From a virus: a stretch of DNA of 23,071 nt. The position numbers and the translations under genes are program-made. The stretch is taken from positions 1 to 23,071 of the IMG/VR virus record IMGVR_UViG_3300010430_000471; one strand, written 5' to 3'. A model generated the notes under the pieces. It saw only the letters and a program-made list of their open reading frames with translations. It made no database searches and had not been told where the DNA came from. Below are positions 5,706 through 20,019 of this stretch, one piece after another; the stretch's first letter is position 1, and each line of letters begins with the position of its first letter.

Positions 5706-5714
5706 GGAATATTG

Positions 5715-5930
5715 ATGGCTGATTTAGACGTAGATACAACCGCACCCGCGTATACAACCCGCAGACAGCAGTTTGCGGATATCGTGACATTCTATAAGGA
5801 GCGTTTGCGGGCATATCACAAATTGCGTGATCCAGACATGCGGCAAGCGTGGCGCCAGGCAGACCCGTTTCTTGCAGACCTTCTAAGGTTCGCTAGAGAA
5901 GTTGACAGGCTGGGGAGTAAAGGTTTATGA
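5715..5930 (+). CDS. Small helical protein, cassette copy A
   Basis: This 71-residue protein starts at ATG 5715, six bases after AAGGA; the in-frame TTG at 5712 is too close to the ribosome binding site to be preferred. It has an N-terminal DTTAPAYTTRR segment followed by a charged, probably helical body with AWRQADPFLADLLRF. It is a clear paralogue of the 70-residue protein at 7555-7767, sharing DTTAPAYTTRR and AWRQADPFL plus much between. It is the first gene of a three-gene unit occurring twice. Its stop overlaps the next start (ATGA). No domain family is recognised. The constant linkage to a downstream beta-helix gene suggests an adaptor or chaperone for it, which is inference only. Confidence 0.75.
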   Translation: MADLDVDTTAPAYTTRRQQFADIVTFYKERLRAYHKLRDPDMRQAWRQADPFLADLLRFAREVDRLGSKGL

Positions 5931-6316
5931 TAAAGAATCGAAATTTCATGTCCTTTGACCCTGCCGACATCCCTCTCGCTGATGAGTACGTAAGATGTAA
6001 TTTCAGTCGCAAACTCCCAACAGATATTGGCGGTGGCGTGATGCGCGGTACTCGACTATTTCCTGGAGATGATACACCTCGTACCTTTCGTCAGTGCAAT
6101 TTAACAAATTGCGAGCCGCCCCCGGGGTCAACTGTCATTGAGAGCAATACTCACATTGTTGATCCCAACTCTTTTAATAGGGCTGACATTGTTAGGGTCA
6201 ATGGGTTAGAGGTTGGTCGTCGCAATTTTACCGATAATATCCACTATGGAAGGTATAACCCCAGTACCGAATCCTATGATGATAATCCGGCTCCTGTGGT
6301 GACGCCAAATGACTGA
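5927..6316 (+). CDS. Cys-containing hypothetical protein, cassette copy A
   Basis: This 129-residue protein starts with an ATG overlapping the preceding stop (ATGA). Its core is ADEYVRCNFSRK, DIGGGVMRGTRLFPGDDTPR and QCNLTNCEPPPGS. The paralogue at 7764-8156 keeps the order CNF, DIGGGVMR, RLFPGDDTPRTF and CNLTNCEPPPGS. The paired CN motifs suggest a small beta-structured fold, possibly a few solenoid-like turns. It has no signal peptide, so the conserved cysteines would sit in the cytoplasm or in the virion. I do not recognise a named family. Its fixed position between a small helical protein and a beta-helix protein in both cassettes suggests a shared assembly role. Confidence 0.75.
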   Translation: MIKNRNFMSFDPADIPLADEYVRCNFSRKLPTDIGGGVMRGTRLFPGDDTPRTFRQCNLTNCEPPPGSTVIESNTHIVDPNSFNRADIVRVNGLEVGRRNFTDNIHYGRYNPSTESYDDNPAPVVTPND

Positions 6317-7511
6317 CTTTTATGTAGACAATGCGGCGGGGTCAGATGCCAATAGTGGGTCTTCCGAGGGTTCAGCCCAGCATAACGGGACAGCGGCTAC
6401 TAGATCGACAAATGTCTATACGTTGGATGGCTCACCAGACTTATCTGGGATAACAGATGGTGAGGACACAATTGCAATTGTCGGCGAGACCAGTGGTCAG
6501 GGTGTAATTGGTGACACGATCTTTTTGATTACTGCACATGATGACGGGGCTGATACAGTAACAGTAAGCCCAACCCCGACAGGGGGAACGTCAGGACTCA
6601 CCTGGGCTATTGGTGGGGGCTTCGCAACGTTCAATAAGGTGGTGAACAACGCAGCCCTTGCTGGCGACGATGTCTACGTCAAGGGTGGTACCATTTACAC
6701 TGAGGCGTCAATCACCACCGCATTGGCGGGTTCCAGCACTGCCCCAATCAGGTTTTTTGGGTATACGTCAGTTATCACAGACAATGGGCAAGTCGTATTC
6801 ACCCCAGCGACTGGAACTGGTTTCACTCACTCACTCACGGGAGCTGCGAATTTAATATTCAACAACATGAGATGGGATAATTGCTCTAATACAGGGTTCA
6901 ATGGCGGCAATAGCGACAACATACACTTTCACAATTGCGGATGGAACGGCAACTCTGGGCGAGGTGTGTTTGGGGACAACACCTATATGTTCGCAAGGTG
7001 CGAAAGTGTGGACAATACTTCACAGGGAACGGACGTTGACGCCAACGCTCAATTTCATGGGTGTATAAATGGTAATAACGGTATCGGTTACTGGACCCTT
7101 GGTGGAGGCACTTACTACAGATGTGTGGGTTATGGCGCTGACAGTACCCAAAGAATTTTACAAGATACGTCGGCGGGGGTCAATATTCTTGGGTGTACGT
7201 TTGATAGTCAGCAACAGGCCCGAGGTCTCCAGGTCGATGATCATTGCACGATAGTAGATACTATACTATATGATTCCGACACTTGGGGTGTAGAGTTTTT
7301 CTCTACTGCCCAGCCCATTGGATTGACTTTCTTTAATCACAATTTGGTTTACGGTAATACTACAGGAGTTTATGAAATCACCAATCGTTGGATTGGACAG
7401 CGTGACGTAGCCCAACCACCAGGATTTACTGACGAGGCCGGCGAAGATTACACCTTGGCGGATACTAGTGCAGCCGTTGATGTAGGTATGACTCCTGGGA
7501 ATCTCCCTTAA
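6309..7511 (+). CDS. Beta-helix fibre-like protein, cassette copy A
   Basis: This 400-residue protein begins with FYVDNAAGSDANSGSSEG, a common start of phage and secreted right-handed beta-helix proteins, and has a regular series of Asn/Gly-rich short strands (FNNMRWDN, HFHNCGWNGN). Residues 1 to about 108 and the last 80 or so are close to its copy at 8153-9367, while the centre differs strongly. The end, near VDVGMTPG, resembles the C-terminal cap of such helices. The start ATG overlaps the upstream stop region by eight bases. It probably forms a surface-exposed fibre or spike with a conserved mount and a variable face. Carbohydrate binding or cleavage is possible, but no catalytic residues are evident. 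Confidence 0.75.
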   Translation: MTDFYVDNAAGSDANSGSSEGSAQHNGTAATRSTNVYTLDGSPDLSGITDGEDTIAIVGETSGQGVIGDTIFLITAHDDGADTVTVSPTPTGGTSGLTWAIGGGFATFNKVVNNAALAGDDVYVKGGTIYTEASITTALAGSSTAPIRFFGYTSVITDNGQVVFTPATGTGFTHSLTGAANLIFNNMRWDNCSNTGFNGGNSDNIHFHNCGWNGNSGRGVFGDNTYMFARCESVDNTSQGTDVDANAQFHGCINGNNGIGYWTLGGGTYYRCVGYGADSTQRILQDTSAGVNILGCTFDSQQQARGLQVDDHCTIVDTILYDSDTWGVEFFSTAQPIGLTFFNHNLVYGNTTGVYEITNRWIGQRDVAQPPGFTDEAGEDYTLADTSAAVDVGMTPGNLP

Positions 7512-7554
7512 TGGTTAATTCTATTGATAACGCTTTACAACCAAGGTCGTCATA

Positions 7555-7767
7555 ATGGCTAACACAATAGTAGATACGACAGCACCAGCATATACGACAC
7601 GTAGATCCCAATTTACGGACATTGTATCATTTTACCGTCCGCATCTCAGGAAATATCATTTGCTGCGTGATCCGGTTATGCAGGAAGCGTGGAGACAGGC
7701 CGATCCATTCCTTGACGACTTACTTAGGTTTTCTGATGCAGTTAGCCGGGGATCGAAGAACTTATGA
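7555..7767 (+). CDS. Small helical protein, cassette copy B
   Basis: This 70-residue paralogue of the 5715-5930 product shares DTTAPAYTTRR, QFxDIVxFY, the LRDPxM segment and AWRQADPFL. It starts at ATG 7555 with AAGG eight bases upstream. It follows a 43-base spacer after copy A's beta-helix gene; the spacer has no convincing promoter or terminator. The stop overlaps the next start (ATGA). The protein is soluble, charged and predicted helical, with no recognised family. Strong protein conservation with synonymous DNA change argues that both copies are under selection for function. Confidence 0.75.
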   Translation: MANTIVDTTAPAYTTRRSQFTDIVSFYRPHLRKYHLLRDPVMQEAWRQADPFLDDLLRFSDAVSRGSKNL

Positions 7768-8156
7768 TTAAGGACAAAAACTTCTCAAACGTTCCAGTTG
7801 GGGATATTCCTGTTGATCTGGAATATGTGGATTGTAACTTTACGCGCTCTACACCAATAGATATTGGTGGTGGCGTGATGCGATCACATAGGCTGTTTCC
7901 TGGAGATGACACTCCAAGGACGTTTACACACTGCAATTTAACTAACTGTGAGCCGCCGCCCGGATCAACTTTGATTAATTGTAATACTAATGTGTTTAAT
8001 GGCCGACTGGTTGTAGACGTGGAGCTTGTACTCGTTGATAGTGTAGAGGTTGGTAGGAATGACGTATCAGACAGGGTTCTCTACGGTAGACTAAACCCGA
8101 CAACTCTGGTGTATGAAGATTTACCTACGCCAGAAGTCCATAGGAATAAGGTATGA
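7764..8156 (+). CDS. Cys-containing hypothetical protein, cassette copy B
   Basis: This 130-residue paralogue of the 5927-6316 product keeps CNF, DIGGGVMR, RLFPGDDTPRTF and CNLTNCEPPPGS in the same order. Here the segment after CEPPPGS reads TLINCNTNVF, adding another CN pair. The N- and C-terminal thirds vary more than the centre. The ATG overlaps the preceding stop and its own stop overlaps the next ATG, so all three cassette genes are probably translated in sequence from one message. No named family is recognised and no export signal is seen. Confidence 0.75.
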   Translation: MIKDKNFSNVPVGDIPVDLEYVDCNFTRSTPIDIGGGVMRSHRLFPGDDTPRTFTHCNLTNCEPPPGSTLINCNTNVFNGRLVVDVELVLVDSVEVGRNDVSDRVLYGRLNPTTLVYEDLPTPEVHRNKV

Positions 8157-9367
8157 CCGACTTTTACGTAGACAATGCGAACGGCTCTGATGCCAATAGC
8201 GGATCTTCAGAAGATCACACAGCCCCACTCTCGGGCACCGCCGCTACACGTTCAACTAATGTCTATACGTTGGACGGGTCCCCCGATCTATCCGGAATCG
8301 TAGACAATGCGGACACGATCGCAATTGTGGGGGAGACTAGTGGGCAGGGTAGTGAGGGTACAACCGTATTTTTGATTACCGCGCATGACGATGGCGCTGA
8401 TACAGTAACAGTGAGTCCCACACCTACCGGTGGAACGTCGGGGTTAACATGGGCTATTGGTGGGGCATTTGCCACGCTGGAGATGGTACATGACAACGCT
8501 GTCCTCGCAGGTGATACTGCTTATATCCAATCAGGCACAGTGTACGATGAAAATGTAAGTACCAGTGTGGCGGGAGCTGTTAATAATCCCATTGCATTTA
8601 TTGGGTACACGACAGTCAACACAGACGAGGGCAAATTTACATTAACCCCAACATCAGGGCAGGGCATTACACATCTACTTAACGGGATAGGCTACCTCAT
8701 CTACAAGAACATGACCATAGATGGTGCAACCACTGGTTTTGATGGTAATAATATGGATACGTGCCATTTCTACAATTGTGATTTCCTTAACAATAGCGGT
8801 ATAGGCGTTACCGGTGATAATAACTACATCTTTGTTAATTGCACAGCTAGGGGCAGTGGCAATAAAGGTTTTGATATAGATCAGGACGGTGTTTACGTAG
8901 GCTGTATTTCTGGTAGTAATGGGCACAATAACTTTTTTGGGCTCGCCAGCTACTATTATAAGAACGTGGCTTACAACCCGCCTGTATCTGCGGATAATTT
9001 CTCAGATACATCCACCGAGATATTCATAGGTAATATAGCCGATGGTGATAATAAAGTCGGATCACAAAACCTAACCGTTGGGACACAAGTGCGCATCGTT
9101 GCTGATAACATCATCTATGATGCGGGTCAATGGGGGGTAGAGTGGAGCGGTGCTGTTGTATATCCTGGCGGGGGTTTTATTGGGTACAATTTAGTAGACT
9201 CAAATACTAGCGGGGATTATGAGTCTCCGAACGGGTGGGAAGGGGTAGTAGGATACAAGGATGTTGCTATGACCCCTCTATTTATTGATGAGGCAGGAGA
9301 TGACTATAGAGCTGCTACAGGTAGTCCCGCTATCAACACAGGTGTTAAGCCTGGCGGAATTACCTAG
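8153..9367 (+). CDS. Beta-helix fibre-like protein, cassette copy B
   Basis: This 404-residue protein begins FYVDNANGSDANSGSSED. Residues 1 to about 110 are nearly the same as in copy A, including NVYTLDGSPDLSGI and TVSPTPTGGTSGLTWAIGG, although many codons differ. The middle (about 115-320) is divergent and Asn/Gly rich (YNCDFLNNSG, VNCTARGSG). The C-terminal part realigns around WGVEW and DEAGDDY, and ends SPAINTGVKPGG. The stop TAG overlaps a GTG start for the following ORF. The pattern is that of a fibre tip with a conserved attachment domain and an altered recognition face; ligand and enzymatic activity are unknown. Confidence 0.75.
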   Translation: MTDFYVDNANGSDANSGSSEDHTAPLSGTAATRSTNVYTLDGSPDLSGIVDNADTIAIVGETSGQGSEGTTVFLITAHDDGADTVTVSPTPTGGTSGLTWAIGGAFATLEMVHDNAVLAGDTAYIQSGTVYDENVSTSVAGAVNNPIAFIGYTTVNTDEGKFTLTPTSGQGITHLLNGIGYLIYKNMTIDGATTGFDGNNMDTCHFYNCDFLNNSGIGVTGDNNYIFVNCTARGSGNKGFDIDQDGVYVGCISGSNGHNNFFGLASYYYKNVAYNPPVSADNFSDTSTEIFIGNIADGDNKVGSQNLTVGTQVRIVADNIIYDAGQWGVEWSGAVVYPGGGFIGYNLVDSNTSGDYESPNGWEGVVGYKDVAMTPLFIDEAGDDYRAATGSPAINTGVKPGGIT

Positions 9368-9681
9368 TGGTTGATGTCTCTTACATTGGCGCATGGTCAA
9401 AGAGAGCTGCTAGCAACAGTATCGGTGCCTATGGTTATGATAGGCCCTCCCACAATTGCATAGGGGCTTATCCTGTACTTGGCCTTGGCGATATAGGGGC
9501 TTACCAAACTGATTTCGCTCCGTTGGCTGTGCTAGATGCTAGTGGTGCGCCAACAATGGCAGTTAGCACTGCCTCTGGTTCGGCATTACTGCCCAATGTT
9601 ATAATTACTGACGTTAACACTACCGAGTCTTGGGATGATGGTGATACGGGCCTCGTTATAACAGGTACGGGATTCCTCTAA
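9367..9681 (+). CDS. Composite 104-aa ORF linking beta-helix and repeat protein
   Basis: A GTG start overlapping the previous stop (TAGTG) opens a frame with three recognisable parts. Residues 1-53 or so carry repeated IGAY motifs (SIGAYGYD, CIGAYP, GDIGAYQ) like the end of many beta-helix proteins. Next comes a single copy, DASGAPTMAVSTASGSALL, of the repeat found about 38 times in the following gene. The end, NVIITDV to LVITGTGF, looks like the first part of an IPT/TIG Ig-like domain, but the frame stops after GFL. It therefore looks like a remnant or shuffled junction piece, although the start and stop overlaps suggest that it is translated. Another initiation choice or a recombination scar is possible. 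Confidence 0.6.
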   Translation: MVDVSYIGAWSKRAASNSIGAYGYDRPSHNCIGAYPVLGLGDIGAYQTDFAPLAVLDASGAPTMAVSTASGSALLPNVIITDVNTTESWDDGDTGLVITGTGFL

Positions 9682-9686
9682 TGGCT
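9670..9686 (+). repeat. 17-bp direct repeat at gene junction, left copy
   Basis: GGATTCCTCTAATGGCT spans the end of the 104-residue ORF (coding GFL, stop TAA) and the overlapping ATG of the 1586-residue gene. The identical 17 bases recur at 14430-14446, at the other end of that gene, in the same relation to a stop/start overlap. Confidence 0.85.
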
Positions 9687-12600
9687 ATTGGCTTTCTAAG
9701 CGCTGCTAGTGATACACCTGAAACAGAAGTAAGCTCTGTAACGTGGGATCACACCAAGACAGCGGGAGCAAGTCGCTACCTGATCGTTCATGTTGCTTAC
9801 GGTGGTGGTGGCGTCGATTCAGTTACGTATGGCGGCCAGACACTAACGGCGATTGGCACGGAAGTCACAAACGGCGGTCACGCCGCGCAAATGTTCTACC
9901 TCGCAGAAGCGGGAGTTGCAGCCGCAACAGGATCACCGCCAGCAGTAACAGTTAATTTCACTGGCACTGGCGAGTTTGTTTGCTGTCATTCGTCACTGTA
10001 CTCCGGCGTTGATTCAATCAGCAGTGTCGGTACGAATACCGGCAACAGCACAACAAGCACCGTTGACGTTACCAGCATGGCCTCGGATTCGTGGGGTGTG
10101 GCAGTTACTAAAAACGCACGCGCCGCCACTTACACAGCTGGAACAAACGACACGATCACCGGCCAGTCAGAGATTGAGTCTGATAGTGGTGTAGCACTTT
10201 ACACCGACACGGTGGCCGCTGGTTCAGCAACAATTAGTTGTTCACGAACCGGGCCTAATCGTGCGTTTGCCATGCAGGGCGCGGAACTCGTAGCGGCGGT
10301 ATTAGCTAAGACCGCTGATGGCGATGCAGACATGGCGTCACCAACTGCTAGTGGTCTTGCAACCTTAAAGCCCATCGCCGACGGTACACCGTCGACTACA
10401 GTAGCCACAGCCTCCGGTGCAGCAACGATATTCAAGCGCGCCACATCAGCAGCAACAATGACTGCAATTGTTGCAGCGGGTGTTGCAGGGATAGTTAAGG
10501 ATGCTAGTGGCGATGCCACAATGGAGAGCCCCACCGCGTCTGGTGTAGTTACGCAGTTTAAGCGTGCTAATGGCACTCCCAATATGGACTCGCCTACTGC
10601 GTCTGGCGTAGTTACTATCATCAAGAGGGGTAGTGGTACTCCATCGACTGACCTGATTACAGCGTCTGGCGTGGCGTCTCTCGGTGTACTGCCCGCATCC
10701 GGTGACCCCAATATGGCGTCACCGACCGCCTCGGGTGTGGTTACACAAATTAAACGGGCTTCAGCAGCAGGCGATTCCTCTGGCATCACGTTCTTCTGGA
10801 CTTGCGAATCGACAACCTTCGATGCCGATGATTATTCGGTGGGTGACGATACACCAACGGTAACTGCTTCGGCATCGATCAGCTCGACACAGGCTAGGGC
10901 TGGTACAAACAGCGTCAAGGTACCTCTGGTTGGCTCGTATTATTGGTTCACGGAGGCCGATGATATAGGTGTCGTGGCAGAGGGGTCGATTGGGTTCTCA
11001 GTCTACGGCACCGCAGACCTAGCAGACCTACAGGGGATCTGGTGTGGTTTATTTGACGGTGACACGCCCAATACTCGCATAAGAGTCTCAATGCCTACGG
11101 CCGATGGCAACGTAGCCTTCGACATCGGTGAGAATGGAGAGGGCAACACTCAAGTTATAACGACTGGCGCTCCAGTATCTGCTGGGGCTTGGTTTGGTAT
11201 TGTTTTCCGTTGGCATGAATCTAACCAAGATATGCGGTTGGAGGTTTATAACGCCGCTGGTACGCTTGTTGATTCTGCCGAAAACCTGTCTGTGGGAGCA
11301 ACAAGCTGGCCTACAGATACCCCAATTGATCGCCTCTTTGTCGGTGACATTGGTGGTGCAGACAACGCGGACTTCTACGTCGACAATGTCTTCGCGTCAA
11401 GCAACTACAACGAGCCGCTCCAAGACTTCCTTGGAATTGCCAGCATCTCCGAGTATGGTACTGGTGTTGTCGCCACGCCAATAACCGCCAGTGGTGTAGC
11501 AACAATCCTCGCTAAGGATGCTAGTGGCACTCCAAGTATGGAGAGCCCAACAGCTAGTGGCGTAGCTAGGTTCGCCCATGATTGCACCGGTACTCCCTCA
11601 CTCGATCCTATCACAGCCACAGGTGTTGCTACTCTAGGAGCACTCACAGCTTCTGGTAACCCAACGTTAGCACCAATTGTAGTGGGTGGTGAGGGTAATA
11701 GTGACGACTTCACCAATACCAATGGCACTGCGCTTGCTACACATGATTCCAATTGGGGATCGATGGGTGGTGTCGGTACATCGAATGACTATCCAGTTGG
11801 CAACTTTGAGATTCAATCAAATGTTAGCCAAGCAACTGCCGCGTTTACCAAGGCAGGGGCTATTTATACTGCCAGTCAGGACGTTGACTTTTGCGAGGTG
11901 GAAGTCCAGCCAGCTGACTACCTCAATAACAGTGTCGCAGTCTGCATCCAAGCTACATCAACTCGTCAAGGTTATAATGCGCGGCTTACCTCCTTAAGTG
12001 GTGACACTTTTGCTGCCATAAACCTGCAAGAAGATAACGGAACTAGTGATACATTTAGAGACACAGCCACAATAAGCTGGGATAGAACCGGATCGCCAAT
12101 CAAGATTAGGATTGAGTATATTGGCGGTAATGTCGTTGTCACGGTTGATGATGTCGAGGAAATAAGTTGGGCTGAAGCAACCCCGCTAACTGGCGGTTAT
12201 CCGGGCTTCCGACTTGAGTCCAACGTTGATGATCTTGGCGGGTTTGATAACTGGACTGATGGTGGTGCAGGGATTGCGCGGGCTATCCAGATTTACAAAC
12301 CCAGTGGTACCCCCTCACTAGATGTCATTACTGCGGCTGGTGTTGCTACTCTTGGTGCCCTCGATGCTAATGGCACTCCCTCCATGGGCGTCATTACAGC
12401 TTCTGGTATTGCACGCTTTGCGCATGACGCCGATGGCACACCTTCCCTAGATGTCATTACCGCTTCTGGTGTGGCAACTCTAGGAGCGTTACCTGCTTCT
12501 GGTGATGTCACATTAGACCCGATTACTGCTAGTGGTACTGCACGATTTGCCCATGATGCGGATGGAGCACCAACCCTAGATGCCATTACAGCTTCTGGTA

Positions 12601-14441
12601 TAGCTAGGTTTGCTCATGACGCTAGCGGCACGCCTACGATGGATGCTATCACAGCCTCTGGCGTAGCATCGTTATCGGGCTTAGTAACGGCTTCTGGTGA
12701 TCCATTATTAGGGGTTATCACCGCTTCTGGTGCGGTCACACAGACCCAGCTAGCCTCTGGTACTCCTGCGATGGCCAGCCCGTCAGCAAGCGGACTCGTC
12801 AATCTATTTGGTGGCACTGAGGGTACACCAACACTAGAGGTTATTACGGCTAGTGGTGTAGCAACGCTTGGAGCGCGAACAGCTAGTGGCAATCCCTCGA
12901 TAGATCCGATTACAGCCACGGGCGTAGCGGGTCTCTTACATGATGCTAGTGGTACTCCTACGATGGACGCCATTACTGCATCGGGTATAGCAGCTCTAGA
13001 GGGACAGCTAACGGCTACAGGTGCACCATCTACAGCCTTAATAACTGCTGCGGGCGTTGTCAAGCAGATACAGCTTGCATCGGGTACGCCATCACTCGAT
13101 CCTATCACTGCTGTAGGCATAGCAATAAAAGAGGCACTATCGGCTAGTGGCACCCCATCAATAGCTAGTCCTACAGCTGTGGGTGTAGTCAACCTAGCGC
13201 CTAAGGTTTGGTTAAACACCACACAGACTATCTCCGGCGCAACCGAGATGACGGTCACTGCATGGAATCTTGCGGGTACGTCAATTACCTTCACTGATCC
13301 CTCTGGGCCACCTATTGGCTCACTCTACCTGGGTGTCGAAAATCGTAACCTAGGTGGAGGTGATAGTAATACTGGTTGGATAGCTGTTACAGTTGTGGCC
13401 TCCAGACAAGCTAGCGGTACCCCTACAATGGAGGCTGTTACCGCAGCGGGTACAGCAACGTTAGTAGGGTTAGTAACCGCTTCAGGTACACCTACGTTAG
13501 ATACAATAACCGCTACGGGTAATGTTACACAGACACAACTTGCCTCTGGTGCACCTAGTTTAGATGTAATAACAGCCTCGGGTGTTGCTACACTTGGAGC
13601 GTTACCCGCGAGTGGTGCACCTTCATTAGATGCCATTACTGCGTCAGGTGTAGCACGATTTGCTCACGATGTCTCAGGTACTCCTTCGACGGACGTAATC
13701 ACCGCTTCAGGTGTCGCCAGCCTAGAGGGGTTAGTAACAGCTACTGGTAGTCCCTCGCTAGAGGTTATCACTGCCTCAGGGCAAGTAACGCAGCGGCAAC
13801 TCGCTAGTGGTACACCCACCCTTGATGTGATCACTGCTAGTGGTACTGTTGACAAACAGGGGTTGGTAACTGCTTCCGGTACTCCTGCAGTTGAGGTTAT
13901 TGCGGCGTCAGGTCAGATTACACAGACACAGCTCCTATCAGGTGCCCCATCACTTGAGGCGGCAACTGCTGCAGGTACTGCGCGTATAGTTAAGGCAGCT
14001 CAGGGTACCCCGTCCATAGAGGTTATTGAGGCAAGTGGTGTAGCTGACCTACTTGCTCTCCCAGCTTTTGGTACGCCCGCATTAGATGCAATAACGGCTT
14101 CTGGTATTGCTGGGTTCCGTAGCACCGCAAGTGGTACTCCAGTATTAGACCTAATAACTACATTAGGTGTTGTTGTACGCACTTTGGAGGCTTCTGGTAC
14201 TCCTACGTTAGACGTAATAACCGCTGCGGGCCTAGTTGATATACCAACCTTCTTTGAAGCCCACATCGAGTTTGAGTGCGCTACATACACCATAGACATC
14301 GCGATGATGGCATACACCATCGATATAGACCTTACTACCGAGGGGAAATACACCATCACTGTAGACGCCCCATTACATCCATGGGTAGATGGTCCCAATG
14401 AATCTGCCTTCTCTGCGGGCTTTACTAAAGGATTCCTCTAA
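9681..14441 (+). CDS. Giant repeat virion/adhesin-like protein, 1586 aa
   Basis: This 1586-residue, Ala/Ser/Thr/Gly-rich protein has no signal peptide. Residues 1 to about 207 form a separate N-terminal domain (SRYLIVHVAYGGGG near 30). About 38 units of 21-23 residues with core ASGTPxxDxITASGVA follow, at about 208-363, 584-665, 869-1173 and 1243-1520. Three non-repeat segments break the array: two lectin-like, LamG/concanavalin-type beta domains (about 364-583 with DFYVDNVFAS, and 666-865 ending GGFDNWTDG) and a short one (1173-1243). The C-terminal 65 residues contain three YTIxI/V strands and end GFL. It lies among beta-helix fibre genes, so a fibre, decoration or adhesion role is inferred; the repeat itself has no known function to me. 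Both ends carry the same 17-bp junction sequence. Confidence 0.8.
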   Translation: MAIGFLSAASDTPETEVSSVTWDHTKTAGASRYLIVHVAYGGGGVDSVTYGGQTLTAIGTEVTNGGHAAQMFYLAEAGVAAATGSPPAVTVNFTGTGEFVCCHSSLYSGVDSISSVGTNTGNSTTSTVDVTSMASDSWGVAVTKNARAATYTAGTNDTITGQSEIESDSGVALYTDTVAAGSATISCSRTGPNRAFAMQGAELVAAVLAKTADGDADMASPTASGLATLKPIADGTPSTTVATASGAATIFKRATSAATMTAIVAAGVAGIVKDASGDATMESPTASGVVTQFKRANGTPNMDSPTASGVVTIIKRGSGTPSTDLITASGVASLGVLPASGDPNMASPTASGVVTQIKRASAAGDSSGITFFWTCESTTFDADDYSVGDDTPTVTASASISSTQARAGTNSVKVPLVGSYYWFTEADDIGVVAEGSIGFSVYGTADLADLQGIWCGLFDGDTPNTRIRVSMPTADGNVAFDIGENGEGNTQVITTGAPVSAGAWFGIVFRWHESNQDMRLEVYNAAGTLVDSAENLSVGATSWPTDTPIDRLFVGDIGGADNADFYVDNVFASSNYNEPLQDFLGIASISEYGTGVVATPITASGVATILAKDASGTPSMESPTASGVARFAHDCTGTPSLDPITATGVATLGALTASGNPTLAPIVVGGEGNSDDFTNTNGTALATHDSNWGSMGGVGTSNDYPVGNFEIQSNVSQATAAFTKAGAIYTASQDVDFCEVEVQPADYLNNSVAVCIQATSTRQGYNARLTSLSGDTFAAINLQEDNGTSDTFRDTATISWDRTGSPIKIRIEYIGGNVVVTVDDVEEISWAEATPLTGGYPGFRLESNVDDLGGFDNWTDGGAGIARAIQIYKPSGTPSLDVITAAGVATLGALDANGTPSMGVITASGIARFAHDADGTPSLDVITASGVATLGALPASGDVTLDPITASGTARFAHDADGAPTLDAITASGIARFAHDASGTPTMDAITASGVASLSGLVTASGDPLLGVITASGAVTQTQLASGTPAMASPSASGLVNLFGGTEGTPTLEVITASGVATLGARTASGNPSIDPITATGVAGLLHDASGTPTMDAITASGIAALEGQLTATGAPSTALITAAGVVKQIQLASGTPSLDPITAVGIAIKEALSASGTPSIASPTAVGVVNLAPKVWLNTTQTISGATEMTVTAWNLAGTSITFTDPSGPPIGSLYLGVENRNLGGGDSNTGWIAVTVVASRQASGTPTMEAVTAAGTATLVGLVTASGTPTLDTITATGNVTQTQLASGAPSLDVITASGVATLGALPASGAPSLDAITASGVARFAHDVSGTPSTDVITASGVASLEGLVTATGSPSLEVITASGQVTQRQLASGTPTLDVITASGTVDKQGLVTASGTPAVEVIAASGQITQTQLLSGAPSLEAATAAGTARIVKAAQGTPSIEVIEASGVADLLALPAFGTPALDAITASGIAGFRSTASGTPVLDLITTLGVVVRTLEASGTPTLDVITAAGLVDIPTFFEAHIEFECATYTIDIAMMAYTIDIDLTTEGKYTITVDAPLHPWVDGPNESAFSAGFTKGFL
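10306..14238 (+). repeat. Array of ~38 repeats (63-69 bp) in the giant gene
   Basis: The consensus at protein level is ASGTPxxDxITASGVA plus a 5-7 residue tail. Tails fall into a few classes: RFAHD, ATLGALx, TQxQL, SLxGLVT and xIKR. Counting by eye gives about 38 units in four blocks. DNA spelling differs strongly between units with the same peptide, so the array is clear in protein but weak as exact DNA repeats. Confidence 0.85.
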
Positions 14442-14986: not shown

Positions 14987-15319
14987 GTGGCACAAGTAAT
15001 TATAAACGAGCTCAGCTCGCTGTTCCTAACTTTCTCGTTCACGGACGAGATTGGTGATCCTGTAGTTCCTAACTCAATTGATTGGCGTGTGGATAACGTG
15101 AACGACCCCCATGCACCAGTCGAAGTTCTAGATTGGGCTTCTGTCGCTGTCCCTGCGTCAGCTGTTAGCGTGCAGATCCCCGGGGCTAGTAATAGCATCT
15201 CTGACGCCACAAAGAACAAGGAGAAGCGTCTTGTTACGGTGCGCATGAATAGCGCTCTCAGTACCCAGGCGTTTGACGATAAACCTTATATCATCAGGAA
15301 TCTTCACGCAACTCCTTAG
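14987..15319 (+). CDS. Small Ig-like phage structural protein
   Basis: This 110-residue protein begins at a GTG (14987) six bases after ATAGGAG, a strong ribosome binding site; no better ATG exists. The pattern FTFSFTDEIGDPVVPNSIDW followed by VDNVND, VSVQIPGASN and KRLVTVRMNSA is that of a single Ig-like beta-sandwich domain of a kind I recall near head and tail genes of environmental phages. It has no signal peptide. It sits between the adhesion block and the endolysin. A virion decoration or adhesion role is likely but unproven. Confidence 0.6.
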   Translation: MAQVIINELSSLFLTFSFTDEIGDPVVPNSIDWRVDNVNDPHAPVEVLDWASVAVPASAVSVQIPGASNSISDATKNKEKRLVTVRMNSALSTQAFDDKPYIIRNLHATP

Positions 15320-15328
15320 GAGAACAGC

Positions 15329-15772
15329 ATGTCTTGGGACTACGGATCTAGAAGTATTGCTAAGCTGGATACAGCACACCACGAGTTGGTGGAAACATTC
15401 CATCTCTATCGCCAAAGGCAGTTCTACGATATTACCATCATCCATGGTTGGCGAGGGGAAGCGATACAGCACCAGGCATTCATTGAGGGTAACTCAACGA
15501 AGGATTGGCCAGATTCCAAACATAACATTCTCGGGCCGGACGGAGAGCCCCTATCTAATGCCATCGATTACGGTCCATGGTGTTATGTACCCGAACTCGG
15601 CAAAATGGGTGTCCCTTGGAAGGACACGCATGCGTTCGCAATTATTGGTGGTCTTCTACTTGCTTGCGCGAGAGAATTAGGTTATAATTTACGTTATGGA
15701 GGAGATTGGGACATGGATGGCCAAACCACTGACCAAAACCTAATGGACTGGGGACACATAGAGAGGCACTAA
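15329..15772 (+). CDS. Endolysin, M15-type peptidase (L-Ala-D-Glu type)
   Basis: This 147-residue protein fits the M15 zinc-peptidase endolysins that cut peptide stems of peptidoglycan, as in phage T5. The expected zinc ligands are visible: His65 in SKHN, Asp80 in NAIDYGPW and His143 in MDWGHIE, with Glu145 following. The gap from His65 to Asp80 is longer than in T5 lysin because of an extra GPDGEPL segment, a variant I recall in many phages. There is no signal peptide, so it depends on a holin. It is a single domain without a cell-wall-binding module, usual for phages of Gram-negative hosts. Its start has TAGGAG upstream. It heads the lysis block. Confidence 0.88.
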   Translation: MSWDYGSRSIAKLDTAHHELVETFHLYRQRQFYDITIIHGWRGEAIQHQAFIEGNSTKDWPDSKHNILGPDGEPLSNAIDYGPWCYVPELGKMGVPWKDTHAFAIIGGLLLACARELGYNLRYGGDWDMDGQTTDQNLMDWGHIERH

Positions 15773-15775
15773 CAC

Positions 15776-16198
15776 ATGAACGGCACACGCTTATTGAAGT
15801 GGCTAATAACGGCCTTGCTCTTAGGATCACTAACGATCCAGGCAGACCCCTTCAAGATTTGGGATTGGACTGGACCTACACTCTACAGTAACGGTCAACC
15901 AATCCCAGGCACTGATATACTAGAGTTCACGCTTTACTGTAATGACACATCAGGGGAATCTGGACCTCCATATGAGGTAGCAATTGCGCTGGATGATCCA
16001 GGAGCACCGCCAAGTCAGGAAGACATGGCACCGGTAGTACAGGGACGTGTGGGTGTTTATTATTGTGTATCAACGGCTCGTAGTTCTTCGTATAATACCG
16101 AGTCGGGGTACTCCAACGAGGTAAATTTTACTGTGACGTCGATGGATCTTGGTTTTGTACCCAGCCCACCGACGAACCTCCTATTCCAGACCCCTTAA
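15776..16198 (+). CDS. Secreted FnIII-like protein
   Basis: This 140-residue protein has an N-terminal signal peptide (LLKWLITALLLGSLTIQA, likely cut before DPF). The mature part is beta-rich with YCNDTSGESG, GVYYCVSTARSSSYNTESGY and SNEVNFTV, resembling one fibronectin type III-like domain. Two cysteines (in LYCND and YYCVS) could form a disulphide in the periplasm. The ATG is about ten bases after GAGAGG. It lies directly after the endolysin (3 bases between genes) and before a holin-like gene. Exported Fn3-like proteins are not standard lysis components, so it may act on the envelope or superinfecting phage, or simply ride in this operon. Confidence 0.65.
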   Translation: MNGTRLLKWLITALLLGSLTIQADPFKIWDWTGPTLYSNGQPIPGTDILEFTLYCNDTSGESGPPYEVAIALDDPGAPPSQEDMAPVVQGRVGVYYCVSTARSSSYNTESGYSNEVNFTVTSMDLGFVPSPPTNLLFQTP

Positions 16199-16245
16199 AA
16201 CCTAAAGGGTCCGGTTGCACTAGTTGGTAACAAGGAGCATATAGC

Positions 16246-16518
16246 ATGAAAGAACATCTACCTTCCTTAGTGGCACTCATTGCTGGTGTGATCTTCCACA
16301 TCATCAAGAAGGCCGCACAGAAACGTCTGGACAATGCGAACTTTAGTCTGAAGGATTATCTCGTAGGTCATCCATATCAGACTCTCAGCCTATTTGGCGC
16401 TGCTGCGGGTGCATATTTGGGGTTATTCCAATTGGATGGTGGTGTATCTCTTGGCGCCGCATTTATGGCAGGTATTGCAGCGAATTCGGTAAGTGACATT
16501 GCACCAGGGCAGAGATGA
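16246..16518 (+). CDS. Holin-like membrane protein
   Basis: This 90-residue protein has up to three hydrophobic segments: about 5-20 (LPSLVALIAGVIFHII), about 44-62 (TLSLFGAAAGAYLGLF) and about 67-83 (VSLGAAFMAGIAANSV), separated by a basic stretch (KKAAQKR). This is the size and layout of a holin, which opens the inner membrane to release endolysin. Its ribosome binding site AAGGAG lies nine bases before the ATG. It sits between endolysin and spanin genes, the usual lysis order. Its stop overlaps the next start (ATGA). Two further small membrane proteins downstream (17863 and 18117) are alternative holin candidates. Confidence 0.6.
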   Translation: MKEHLPSLVALIAGVIFHIIKKAAQKRLDNANFSLKDYLVGHPYQTLSLFGAAAGAYLGLFQLDGGVSLGAAFMAGIAANSVSDIAPGQR

Positions 16519-16868
16519 ACGTCTGGAATTGGGTTAAATCCTTCGGGTGGGTTAAGACCTTGGGTCTCGTCCTAGGAGCCATCGCGTTAGCTTTGGCTGC
16601 TGGACGGGCTTCATCTAAGCACAAAGCGGGTGTAAAGAAGGAGAAGAAAGCCGAGAATCTCCTCAATGCTAGCACATCCCGGGAAATTCAAAAGGGCAAG
16701 AAGCTCGTTGAAGCCGCGGACAAAGACAAAACTAAAGCTGCCGACGCCAGGAAGAAAATGGAAGCCCACCTGGAGAAGCTTGGAGAAGCCAATGAAGATA
16801 TGGATAGTATTGCTGACCGTTTTAATTCTAGGCGCTTGCGCGTCAAATCCACCAGTACAGGTACCTAA
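16515..16868 (+). CDS. i-spanin-like inner-membrane coiled-coil protein
   Basis: This 117-residue protein has one N-terminal transmembrane segment (about 13-30, KTLGLVLGAIALALAAG) followed by a Lys/Glu/Ala-rich, probably coiled-coil periplasmic region (about 36-100), the layout of an i-spanin. In Gram-negative lysis the i-spanin pairs with an outer-membrane lipoprotein to fuse the membranes. A lipoprotein gene starting at 16792 overlaps its 3' end in another frame, the nested/overlapping arrangement typical of Rz/Rz1-type pairs. The end (RRLRVKSTSTGT) lies in the overlap. No enzymatic motif is seen. Confidence 0.7.
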   Translation: MNVWNWVKSFGWVKTLGLVLGAIALALAAGRASSKHKAGVKKEKKAENLLNASTSREIQKGKKLVEAADKDKTKAADARKKMEAHLEKLGEANEDMDSIADRFNSRRLRVKSTSTGT

Positions 16869-17217
16869 CTGGGACAATGCGCAACGACCGGATACAACGG
16901 TTACCGACCCAATTGACCTGCCAAAGCTATGCGAAATTCCTCGTGACGGCAGCTGGAGTCCAGGATGCTGGCTTATCTTCGTCGACGAATACGAGGTTAT
17001 TGCCGAAGGAAATACTGAGATTGCCGCGGCCAATGCAGGAGCTTTACGTAAGACAGAAGCTGCGTATGATGCGCTCGTCCAGGCTGGGAAATTCCAGCAG
17101 GAGCTGGCCGTATTTCGAGAGGAGCTACTCGAGGCTGAACGAAGACAAAGGTCCTGGGACAAGTGGTACTACCGCGCCGTCCTAGGTGGATTGATTATTG
17201 TAGGAGCAACATTATGA
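16792..17217 (+). CDS. Spanin lipoprotein (o-spanin or u-spanin-like)
   Basis: The best start is ATG 16792, six bases after GGAGA, giving a 141-residue protein that begins MKIWIVLLTVLILGAC. LGAC is a lipobox with Cys16; Ala at +2 fits outer-membrane sorting. A longer frame open upstream to 16666 would bury the signal and is rejected as the start. The middle contains DEYEVIAEGNTEI and a charged helical stretch (about 75-120). The protein ends with a short hydrophobic segment YYRAVLGGLIIVGATL. A lipoprotein N-terminus with a C-terminal membrane anchor is the architecture of a unimolecular u-spanin such as T1 gp11, whereas the overlapping i-spanin-like gene suggests a two-component system. Which applies is unresolved. 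Confidence 0.72.
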   Translation: MKIWIVLLTVLILGACASNPPVQVPNWDNAQRPDTTVTDPIDLPKLCEIPRDGSWSPGCWLIFVDEYEVIAEGNTEIAAANAGALRKTEAAYDALVQAGKFQQELAVFREELLEAERRQRSWDKWYYRAVLGGLIIVGATL

Positions 17218-17870
17218 CACCAATAAGACACAGAGTGCAAGGCTTCTTGCTATTCACGCTACTCATCGCGTTAGCAATTGGCCTTAACCAACGCGCGTAT
17301 GCTTCGGGTGACAAGATTACCCAGTCCAACGACATGAACAACCAAACTGCTGGTAACGTACTTACTGGCGGTAATGATGCATGGGGCATTGGTTTTAGCT
17401 CACCCTCGTTTGGTGCTGCTATTAGCCAATGTGTGGCTACAAAGGCCAGCAATTGGTTCTTCGGGGCTTTCAGCAAACAAGGCGTTATTTCCAACTATCA
17501 CTGTATGGGTCTTGCTTATCTCCGAGCCGGTATGGTGACAGCTGGTGAATTTTACCTTTGTGGCTACACCGAACTGTCTGAGCTAGGCGATGCATGTCCA
17601 GCAGCAGTTGCTGAATTCCAACGTGTAATAGCCCCACCACCCAGTGATGATGATGATGGTGAGGAAGAGTATCATGCAGAACAGATGGCCGAACAGGCTA
17701 TGATGTATGAGGACTTCCAGGCTAAGATTAGGAACCTCGAAGATGCGTACGCTGAGGCATCTTCCCCACCGCCCGCACAAGTTACGAGGGAAATTGTTGA
17801 GGTTCAACAACCATACTTGATCTCGAAGGAACTTGCTAACGAACTAAAGGTGGGGGTGGAGGATGAGTAA
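17214..17870 (+). CDS. Secreted Cys-containing hypothetical protein
   Basis: The chosen start is ATG 17214, seven bases after TAGGAG and overlapping the preceding stop (ATGA), giving 218 residues. The signal peptide covers about 1-30 (FLLFTLLIALAIGL, cleavage after AYA). The mature domain has four cysteines (SQCVAT, YHCMG, YLCGY, DACPA) and the motif SPSFGAAISQC, which I recall in hypothetical proteins of environmental phages. The C-terminal part has a PPPSDDDDGEEE acidic stretch and a probable coiled coil (about 150-190). Its export places it in the periplasm. Function is unknown; lysis assistance or envelope modification are possibilities because of its neighbours. Confidence 0.68.
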   Translation: MTPIRHRVQGFLLFTLLIALAIGLNQRAYASGDKITQSNDMNNQTAGNVLTGGNDAWGIGFSSPSFGAAISQCVATKASNWFFGAFSKQGVISNYHCMGLAYLRAGMVTAGEFYLCGYTELSELGDACPAAVAEFQRVIAPPPSDDDDGEEEYHAEQMAEQAMMYEDFQAKIRNLEDAYAEASSPPPAQVTREIVEVQQPYLISKELANELKVGVEDE

Positions 17871-18120
17871 CTTTATTAAAGACAATGGCGGGCCCCTAGT
17901 AGTAGGCGCCGTCTTCCTTGCCATAATCCTGGGCTATATTGAATTGCGTATACCGCCCATAGTTGTAGCCGAAATTGAGTCGCGCGGTATTGTGTCGTCC
18001 GACAAGATTGATTCCATGGAAGGTGATATCGAAGATAACGAGGGCGATATTGGTGAGCTAACCACTCGATGGAATAGACTCGTAGATGCTATCTCAGCCG
18101 GCGATGATGGTTCACAATGA
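17863..18120 (+). CDS. Small single-TM protein with acidic tail
   Basis: This 85-residue protein has an N-terminal membrane segment (about 10-26, PLVVGAVFLAIILGYIE) followed by a soluble, acidic, probably coiled-coil tail (SMEGDIEDNEGDIGEL). The ATG lies inside the preceding stop region (ATGAGTAA), and its own stop overlaps the next start. It has no lipobox. It is the first of two similar small membrane proteins in tandem. It may be an additional holin, antiholin or membrane-associated lysis factor; no family is recognised. Confidence 0.55.
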   Translation: MSNFIKDNGGPLVVGAVFLAIILGYIELRIPPIVVAEIESRGIVSSDKIDSMEGDIEDNEGDIGELTTRWNRLVDAISAGDDGSQ

Positions 18121-18374
18121 GCATTGACATGTGGGCTATAATTATAGGGGTCGGCACCCCTATAATTGCAGGTCTAGCAGCCGCATGGTGGCATGTAGAA
18201 TCTAGGCAGGATAAAGCTATCTGTGCTCTTCGCGAACGTAATGCGAAGGATCATGATAAAATTCGGGAACAGCTAGACGATACTAAGGATACCCTGACCA
18301 CACAGCATCACTCATTACGCGATAAGATAGACCTTATTTGGCAGCACCTCCTAAAGGAAAAGAGAGGTGGGTGA
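18117..18374 (+). CDS. Small single-TM coiled-coil protein
   Basis: This 85-residue protein has a membrane segment (about 6-24, WAIIIGVGTPIIAGLAAAW) and then a charged helical tail with heptad-like spacing (IREQLDDTKDTLTTQHHSL and on). The layout is the reverse of XhlA-like proteins. The ATG overlaps the previous stop (ATGA). The codons for IIGVGTPII form a perfect 12-base inverted repeat. It is the last gene before the 18383-18411 promoter. A holin-related or membrane-scaffold role is possible; no known family is recognised. Confidence 0.55.
   Translation: MSIDMWAIIIGVGTPIIAGLAAAWWHVESRQDKAICALRERNAKDHDKIREQLDDTKDTLTTQHHSLRDKIDLIWQHLLKEKRGG
18140..18167 (+). promoter_or_regulatory. Perfect 12-bp hairpin inside the 18117 gene
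   Basis: AATTATAGGGGT (18140-18151) and ACCCCTATAATT (18156-18167) are exact reverse complements around CGGC. It lies within codons 8-17 of the gene, and no U-run follows, so it does not look like a terminator. It could affect translation or RNA processing. Confidence 0.5.
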
Positions 18375-18382
18375 TGACGCTG

Positions 18383-18411
18383 TTGATTTTTGTCTTCGTA
18401 CTAGTTATAAT
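18383..18411 (+). promoter_or_regulatory. Sigma70-type promoter for the capsid block
   Basis: TTGATT (18383-18388) and TATAAT (18406-18411) are separated by 17 bases. The -35, the -10 and the spacing are identical to those of the promoter at 1462-1490. It lies 25 bases before the protease start, in a 61-base gap that otherwise holds only a 15-codon hydrophobic frame. Confidence 0.62.
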
Positions 18412-18435
18412 TAACGTATAGCAGAGGTTACGACA

Positions 18436-20019
18436 ATGCCTAAACGTACCATGTTGTCGGTCCAAGCGACACCTGACGTAGCAAACATAAGGACGGCAAC
18501 ACTCTTCGATGAAGAGCACACTGTTGTCCCATGTGTTGCCCTCGTTGAGGGTGTCCTCTGGCCCGCTAATGCGCCAGCCCCAGAGTTGGCGCTCGCCGAA
18601 GAATTCGGTCGATTCCCAGATAGCTGGAATGGGCGACCAGTAGTATTCGATCACCCCAAAGTTAATGGTATGGCTGTTAGCGCCAGTCACCCAGAGGTTA
18701 TGGAAGAAGTAGCCTTCGGGTCCATCTTCAATACCGAGTTGGACGATGTTAAGCTCAGGATGGAACTTTGGATTAACAACGAACGTGTCACTACCATGAG
18801 TGATGATGTAAAGGGCACGGTAGATCGTCTCAAGGATGGCGATGAGGTCGTAGAGGTATCTACGGGTCTCTTTGTGATGTCAGAAGAGGTTGAAGGTAAA
18901 TTCGAAGGAGAGGACTTCTCCGCAATTTGGAGAAACGTCGTCCCTGATCACCTTGCAGTTCTTCCAGAGGGTGTAACAGGTGCCTGCAGTGTTGAGGATG
19001 GCTGTGGTGCACCCCGAACAAATAAGGAGTTTACTCCAGTCATGAACGCAGCCAGGATTGAGTTCAATACCAGTGATGGCACCAGCGATGGTACCAGCGA
19101 TGACACCGAGAAGAAAGGTACATTCGAGAAGTTCGTCGAGTTGGCCGGTAATCTTTTCGCCTTCCGCAATAGCGCTAAGGATATGTCGGATAACGATGTA
19201 CGCACAGCCTTGAGTTCTGCGCTGTCTACCCAGGAGTCATATTTCTGGATTATGGCAGTATTCGACTCAGGCGACGGTAGCGGTACTGTGGTGTTTGAGA
19301 GTTTCGACACCGGCAAGTTGTTCGAGCAGGAATTCACGATCTCCGAGCAGAAGGTAACACTCGGGGCTGATAGGGTCGAAGTAAGACCCGTAACCGAATT
19401 TGTCCCAGTGACAACCGAGATGGAAGGTGACGATGTCACTGACAACTCGGAAGGCGCTGAGACGGATGCAAACCAACTCCAGGAGAATAGTAACATGGAC
19501 AAAGACCAGCTCGTAAAGGAACTGATCGACAATGCGTCGTCCCAGTTTACCGAAGACGATCGGGCATGGCTGAGCACACTCGAAGAGTCGCAGCTGGCCA
19601 AATTGTCGCCGATTGAAAATGAGGATGGCGGTGAAGGTGGTGATGGTGACGATGAAGTTACCGGCGCTATTGGCACCGTTATTGGTGCTGATGACTCGGA
19701 GGACGAAATCGTCGAGCCGGTATCTACCGAAGACTACATTGCAGGAGCGCCCGACGAAGTACAGGCAGTCCTCAATTCTGGTCTGCGAATGCATCGTGAA
19801 CGTAAGAAGGCACTTGTTAGTGGCCTCTTGGCGAACTCACGGTGTACATTCACCAACGCCCAACTGAATGCTAAGCCTGTCGAAGAACTCGAGCAGATAG
19901 CATCGTTGGTTTCTGACGTCACATTTGAGGGATCCGCGCTTGTACGGGCTAACTCCGATGATGATGACGCGCCTGCACCGATCCAGCTGTTCGATCTGAA
20001 CAAGTCGGCGTCGGCTTAA
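18436..20019 (+). CDS. Prohead protease/scaffold fusion (DUF2213-like)
   Basis: This 527-residue protein has an N-terminal protease-like region (about 20-190). FDHP at 72-74 (His73), VEVSTGLF with Ser142, and PDHLAVLP with His172 match the pattern of DUF2213/Mu-type prohead proteases, which process capsid and scaffold proteins. Residues 200-350 include a short TSDGTSDGTSDD repeat and a less defined region. The C-terminal third is acidic and helical like an internal scaffold. An AGGAG nine bases before ATG 19495 would start the scaffold part alone. The gene has AGAGG eight bases upstream, follows the second promoter and precedes the decoration and capsid genes. The catalytic assignment is inferred from motifs. 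Confidence 0.8.
   Translation: MPKRTMLSVQATPDVANIRTATLFDEEHTVVPCVALVEGVLWPANAPAPELALAEEFGRFPDSWNGRPVVFDHPKVNGMAVSASHPEVMEEVAFGSIFNTELDDVKLRMELWINNERVTTMSDDVKGTVDRLKDGDEVVEVSTGLFVMSEEVEGKFEGEDFSAIWRNVVPDHLAVLPEGVTGACSVEDGCGAPRTNKEFTPVMNAARIEFNTSDGTSDGTSDDTEKKGTFEKFVELAGNLFAFRNSAKDMSDNDVRTALSSALSTQESYFWIMAVFDSGDGSGTVVFESFDTGKLFEQEFTISEQKVTLGADRVEVRPVTEFVPVTTEMEGDDVTDNSEGAETDANQLQENSNMDKDQLVKELIDNASSQFTEDDRAWLSTLEESQLAKLSPIENEDGGEGGDGDDEVTGAIGTVIGADDSEDEIVEPVSTEDYIAGAPDEVQAVLNSGLRMHRERKKALVSGLLANSRCTFTNAQLNAKPVEELEQIASLVSDVTFEGSALVRANSDDDDAPAPIQLFDLNKSASA
19495..20019 (+). CDS. Nested scaffold protein (internal start)
   Basis: In the protease/scaffold frame, codon 354 is ATG preceded by CCAGGAGAATAGTAAC, so a good Shine-Dalgarno lies nine bases upstream. 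Initiation here would give a 174-residue protein starting MDKDQLVKELIDNASSQF, with DDRAWLSTLEESQLAKL next, an acidic linker rich in Asp/Glu/Gly, and a helical end. The MDKxxLVxxLI...FTEDDRxWLxxLxE pattern is familiar to me as the start of separate scaffold segments in related phages. Production of a scaffold from an internal start is known in lambda (Nu3 within C). It is predicted, not proven; the full fusion could instead be cut by the protease. Confidence 0.55.
   Translation: MDKDQLVKELIDNASSQFTEDDRAWLSTLEESQLAKLSPIENEDGGEGGDGDDEVTGAIGTVIGADDSEDEIVEPVSTEDYIAGAPDEVQAVLNSGLRMHRERKKALVSGLLANSRCTFTNAQLNAKPVEELEQIASLVSDVTFEGSALVRANSDDDDAPAPIQLFDLNKSASA

Follow-up and report, generated by a model that had tools for sequence, protein, structure and literature searches.

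The window, by which we mean the whole stretch of DNA analysed here, is the complete IMG/VR record of 23,071 bases. Its lysis region contains an endolysin gene (15329..15772, + strand; phrog_465 endolysin, E 8.7e-20). A gene for a secreted protein, also within 15329–17217, is listed between this endolysin and a hydrophobic protein of 90 residues (16246..16518, + strand), which we call a putative holin from its position and hydrophobicity only. Profile searches against PHROG and Pfam gave this putative holin no family match, and the gene found at the same position in another locus (L034) matches a holin family (0.0044).

The next two genes form an overlapping pair. An i-spanin-like gene (16515..16868, + strand) encodes a protein of 117 residues with an N-terminal hydrophobic segment, a helical remainder and no cysteine, and an o-spanin-like lipoprotein gene (16792..17217, + strand; 141 residues) opens inside it, in another frame, and extends beyond it. 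An earlier note on this DNA had described the two genes as overlapping in the fashion of Rz/Rz1; we confirm this, with an overlap of 77 nt in the +1 frame. The start of the lipoprotein is placed at ATG 16792, the longest mechanical open reading frame opening earlier, at 16666. The signal peptide with its lysine and the lipobox LGAC with the lipid-bearing Cys16 (16792..16839, + strand; rule-based call) lie within the overlap.

An AlphaFold2 model of the window lipoprotein predicts helices at residues 2–17 and 57–140 and no strand. The long second helix (16960..17211, + strand; block means of pLDDT 81–94) runs through a C-terminal hydrophobic tail (residues 129–141; 17176..17214, + strand), with a pLDDT of 92 for the block 131–140. 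The chain ends with the motif WYYR and, after it, 13 residues that carry no charge and are for the most part hydrophobic. A profile search of the PDB gave no convincing relative of this protein, the best match (E 0.016) lying over the signal-peptide region, and a Pfam SNARE match to the window (E 0.087, 13.3 bits versus a cut-off of 26.8) was dismissed. The stop codon of the lipoprotein overlaps the ATG of the downstream gene (ATGA) and, consequently, the tail codons have just one base, the last, in common with that gene. An Rfam search of 15000–18500 returned no matches, and scans for promoters and terminators stayed at chance level.

Redundant disruption systems had been suggested as one explanation for the mixed features of this locus. 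Our scan reveals a single lipoprotein gene and no other credible one in the window, a record that may be a genome fragment, and this suggestion is therefore not upheld. The sole other match of the lipoprotein scan, an internal piece of the endolysin, was rejected as a second spanin system.

Immediately 3′ of the lipoprotein gene, 17214–17870 encodes a secreted protein of 218 residues with a signal peptide, several cysteines and a polar, helical end, for which Pfam and PHROG gave no match up to E 1. By eye, secreted genes of similar look stand near the spanin pair in L036, L039, L057, L058, L060 and L064. The gene at the same position in the window's nearest relative (L002, 5024–5932) matches Pfam Collagen repeats (8.3e-9) and, below threshold, a YadA anchor (0.0049), which gives the impression of a gene for a trimeric surface protein lying within the lysis region. 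Two more small proteins (17863–18120 and 18117–18374) each combine a hydrophobic segment at the N-terminus with a polar end, and could be additional membrane proteins of lysis; for the second, PHROG gives phrog_404 (minor tail protein, 9.3e-5) and a weak match to phrog_2466 (Rz-like spanin, 0.0033). Elsewhere in the window, we note a protein of 1,586 residues with many 'ITASG'-type repeat units (9681–14441) and, by eye, a sulfotransferase-like open reading frame amid structural genes (2092–2922) as well as an apparent tandem duplication (5712–9367), in which three genes at 5712–7511 resemble three at 7555–9367.

A family of overlapping gene pairs

As a single-sequence query against viral contigs, the window lipoprotein found no relative. 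Relatives were reached through the neighbouring capsid and endolysin genes, and then through two alignments (A3 and A4) and one distant member (L037). We recovered 14 further distinct lipoprotein homologues, every one from metagenomic viral contigs, and the resulting set of 15 members, window included, leaves out L062, whose protein repeats that of L036, and L084, a second name for the L065 contig. None of the patterns for the alignment searches was taken from the tail; they derive from i-spanin, signal peptide and helix. Of the six patterns in the L037 search, one is situated just ahead of the tail.

Searches of other collections gave little. For tblastn against 50,697 phage records at E limits of 0.1–10, we took seven family lipoproteins at full length plus one N-terminal part; these queries yielded either no match or, in two cases, partial ones at E 0.6 and 4, and two scans of bacterial genome contigs gave no relative. 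A search for tail-less homologues with the N-terminal 90 residues only found 7 loci, all on contigs of already known tailed members. The comparison of homologues with and without the C-terminal segment thus gives 14 further tailed proteins and, by this N-terminal search, no tail-less one.

The family lipoprotein is present at 6 of the 16 endolysin loci, with other lipoproteins at L042, L044 and L047; at the remaining seven, some of them incomplete loci, a scan of the + strand detected no lipoprotein. L003 has a capsid protein 73% identical to that of the window, yet its lipoprotein is different and tail-less, and the spanin module is therefore exchanged between phages. KpV2811, another capsid-related phage, has a conventional o-spanin of 73 residues.

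Careful analysis of the 15 members reveals a common architecture. The lipoprotein gene overlaps the upstream i-spanin-like gene in every member, by 50–92 nt and in the +1 frame each time, and the upstream protein has a hydrophobic segment near its N-terminus and lacks cysteine in 15/15. The lipoproteins themselves are 135–156 residues long. All have a lipobox by the rule-based call, none has an Asp at position +2 after the lipid-bearing cysteine, and an outer-membrane location would be expected. The 45 residues that follow the lipid-bearing cysteine form a linker with 5–11 prolines, and the mature protein contains two further cysteines in 14 members, among them the window; the exception, L066, has none in either protein.

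These features resemble those of the overlapped class of lambda Rz/Rz1, in which an i-spanin with an N-terminal transmembrane segment and a helical remainder is paired with a lipoprotein whose gene starts within its own in another frame, with the cysteine pattern 0 plus 2 and the endolysin close by. In Kongari et al. (PMC6139136), 0 plus 2 is the commonest cysteine combination of two-component systems, and at least one periplasmic cysteine occurs in 507 of 528 two-component pairs. The profile phrog_456 (Rz-like spanin, 102 positions) aligns through its positions 11–94 with the first 95 residues of L057 (E 2.2e-6) and matches 5/14 members at E up to 0.1; for the window lipoprotein, the best spanin profile is only phrog_3198 (E 0.019). 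Searched against genomes, phrog_456 picks out lambda Rz1 and the KpV2811 o-spanin; its match to a gene of Mannheimia phage vB_MhS_587AP2 is strong (1.4e-30), and T1, SIO1 and VpV262 give no match at E up to 0.001. The profile also matches the lambda Bor lipoprotein (3.3e-4) and rings in 3/14 control genomes, so that the lipoprotein signal peptide supplies part of its signal. Because the endolysin adjoins, a gene for a transmembrane-plus-helix protein overlaps in all members, phrog_456 matches part of the family and the cysteines follow the 0 plus 2 pattern, we favour the reading that the locus encodes a two-component spanin of the overlapped class, in which the o-spanin ends in a conserved, membrane-seeking tail, and consider it probable, with considerable room for doubt.

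The family nevertheless departs from known o-spanins at its C-terminus. Lambda Rz1, T7 18.7 and the KpV2811 o-spanin are without the hydrophobic end of about 12 residues that closes these long lipoproteins. The family proteins extend some 45 residues, helix and tail, past the part matched by phrog_456, and the phrog_456 protein of vB_MhS_587AP2 ends in a polar stretch. According to PMC5295617, lambda Rz1 truncated at position 55 of 60 keeps its function, and a conserved C-terminal tail on an o-spanin is for this reason unlike lambda.

Conservation of the C-terminal tail

The lipoprotein had been described in the earlier note as long and hydrophobic at its C-terminus. This description holds beyond the window: a stretch of about 12 uncharged, not strongly polar residues lies at the end of the lipoprotein, or at most three residues from it, in 15/15. 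We applied a strict test, in which the last 12 residues contain no D, E, K, R, H, N or Q and have a mean Kyte–Doolittle value of at least 2.0 (octanol, Hessa and Eisenberg values also entered the calculations). The test is passed by 12 of the 15 members versus 1 of 878 other open reading frames of at least 80 residues in the fetched sequence, a background of mechanical frames, part of which are probably not genes. The three members that fail (L002, L065 and L067) have the same type of stretch followed by one to three polar residues. Among nine other phage lipoproteins, including lambda Rz1 and T7 18.7, none passes.

For the analyses of composition, simulation, distance and helical moment that follow, terminal Q, S, D and N were removed before the last 12 residues were taken, which alters the same three members. 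The 15 trimmed tails (180 residues) consist only of L, A, V, G, I, T, S, M, Y and F, at a mean pairwise identity of 31%. Neutral simulation to this identity, on a star tree and with related tails counted as independent, places a charged or strongly polar residue in a mean of 11.4 of 15 tails (minimum 5 in 300 runs), whereas we observe 0. The tail also stands at an almost constant distance from a conserved Asn, 55–57 residues in 15/15. Given the excess in the strict test, the restriction in residues and the constant distance, the tail therefore looks selected, at a fixed site of the protein.

Prc is reported to prefer a nonpolar C-terminal tail (PMC7481392), and the last residue is nonpolar in 12/15 of our tails; the nonpolar C-terminus might accordingly mark the lipoprotein for degradation by a periplasmic protease like Prc/Tsp, so that its level stays low before lysis. 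That source also mentions several Prc substrates without a nonpolar tail. L002, L065 and L067 have polar ends. Moreover, such a signal probably needs less than a homogeneous run of about 12 residues in a fixed position on a long helix, and we regard this explanation as very improbable.

The tail as a possible membrane segment

The helical moment of the tail is 0.00–0.15. The segment is thus not amphipathic, which removes one of the objections foreseen in the earlier note. A Lys or Arg lies directly ahead of it in 14/15, the exception again being L066, and no Lys or Arg comes after it. The octanol sum of the last 13 residues alone is negative in 14/15, and the best 19-residue sums of the family range from −2.2 to +7.8 and are positive, that is, unfavourable, in 12/15 (in L067 the best 19 residues fall outside the tail). 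On the same scale, three u-spanin proteins reach −19, −13 and −15, and in these the hydrophobic segment is followed by residues that include Lys or Arg. As a helix, 12–13 residues would by arithmetic cover about 18–20 angstroms, below a full bilayer. To judge from its sequence, the tail is a real hydrophobic segment and a marginal membrane span.

The three u-spanins used in this comparison are T1 gp11, which is named in its record and in the paper, and proteins of SIO1 and VpV262 that we picked by a lipobox scan; Kongari et al. record all three phages among u-spanin carriers. Like them, the family unites in a single protein a lipobox at the N-terminus and a hydrophobic segment at the C-terminus. 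The tail of 12–13 residues is shorter than the segment of T1 gp11 (about 20 residues), it lies no more than three residues from the chain end with no Lys or Arg behind, and, unlike u-spanins, the family has a helical, cysteine-bearing periplasmic part and a conserved partner gene. The periplasmic domain of the T1 gp11 family is mainly beta, while the window lipoprotein is predicted to be helical with no strand. Kongari et al. (PMC6139136) list a periplasmic cysteine in 0 of 58 u-spanins. Consequently, anchoring of the lipoprotein in the inner membrane on the u-spanin plan is weakly supported: the hydrophobic segment is real, but its length, the unfavourable octanol sums, the absence of basic residues behind it and the nature of the periplasmic part do not speak for it.

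The orientation of the upstream protein is a point against the reading that we favour. AlphaFold2 predicts helices at residues 3–50 and 55–113 of the window i-spanin-like protein (mean pLDDT 73). Comparing the 15 residues after its hydrophobic segment with the 15 before, we find the net charge to be higher in 12/15 members, equal in 2 and lower in 1; in known i-spanins, the same measure gives 1 and 1 for lambda Rz, and 1 and −1 for T7 18.5. Of the expected topology, then, the lipobox and the upstream N-terminal hydrophobic segment are found throughout the family, but the flanking charges of the upstream protein do not favour the N-in orientation (type II, N-in/C-out). This charge bias, which does not favour an i-spanin orientation, would, together with the lipobox and the hydrophobic C-terminus, suit a unimolecular spanin, in which the lipoprotein bridges the two membranes on its own and the overlapping gene ahead of it serves another role. 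We find this improbable, since a transmembrane-plus-helix gene overlaps in 15/15, periplasmic cysteines in 14/15 and a helical periplasmic part are unlike the u-spanins of PMC6139136, the tail is short with no Lys or Arg behind it, and the window lipoprotein has no similarity to T1 gp11 (E 6.8).

The marginal character of the tail as a membrane span also admits an ordinary two-component spanin, whose tail meets no membrane and packs within the spanin complex, for example as a helix-bundle core with the i-spanin or with a second o-spanin. The tail is predicted as the continuous end of a single helix, the helix ahead of it has a near-heptad periodicity (peak at 105 degrees), and the constant distance to the conserved Asn fits such packing as well. 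However, the low moment means that the tail is hydrophobic on every face, beyond what the core of a coiled coil needs, and the C-terminal end of the i-spanin-like protein is strongly basic and offers no hydrophobic partner. We therefore consider an ordinary two-component spanin unlikely.

A proposed role for the tail in lysis

On the reading that we favour, an overlapped two-component spanin with a membrane-seeking tail, lysis might proceed as follows. The lipoprotein would be lipidated at Cys16 and then sorted to the outer membrane, where a linker containing prolines and two cysteines would connect to a rigid helix, about 84 residues long. An N-terminal segment would hold the i-spanin in the inner membrane, with its helix reaching into the periplasm, and both proteins would build up inside the peptidoglycan mesh. 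Once the endolysin had cleared the wall, the helices of i-spanin and o-spanin would associate, and the tail of the o-spanin would then insert, close to the i-spanin, into the outer leaflet of the inner membrane, or span that membrane. Besides the pull exerted by the i-spanin, the tail would thereby provide a second hold on the membrane, and the two membranes would fuse.

As a more specific and tentative proposal, which we hold to be possible rather than probable, the tail may resemble a fusion peptide. It would then be a short tip at the end of the rigid o-spanin helix, containing Gly and Ala and hydrophobic throughout, which enters the inner membrane from its periplasmic side at lysis. If true, this would be a third spanin design, with two partners and an o-spanin that grips both membranes.

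The earlier note had also raised an intermediate form. The anatomy fits this idea, and the mixed features are best read as a stable hybrid design common to diverged phages. Kongari et al. (PMC6139136) consider that u-spanins could derive from an o-spanin extended at its C-terminus, and term this speculative because no u-spanin resembles any o-spanin. Among the spanin papers listed by our searches, as judged on titles and the start of abstracts, we found no paper on an o-spanin with a C-terminal hydrophobic segment beside an i-spanin. The family combines a two-component layout and cysteine pattern, a partial o-spanin profile and a hydrophobic C-terminus, and the extension idea therefore becomes testable by adding or removing the tail.

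In sum, this family would supply sequence evidence for the step from o-spanin to u-spanin and, if its tail is indeed a fusion-peptide-like tip, an example in living sequences of the C-terminally extended o-spanin that was proposed as the origin of u-spanins but not found. It would also offer a naturally occurring spanin that has a candidate element for membrane insertion, and as such be useful for the question of how spanins fuse membranes.
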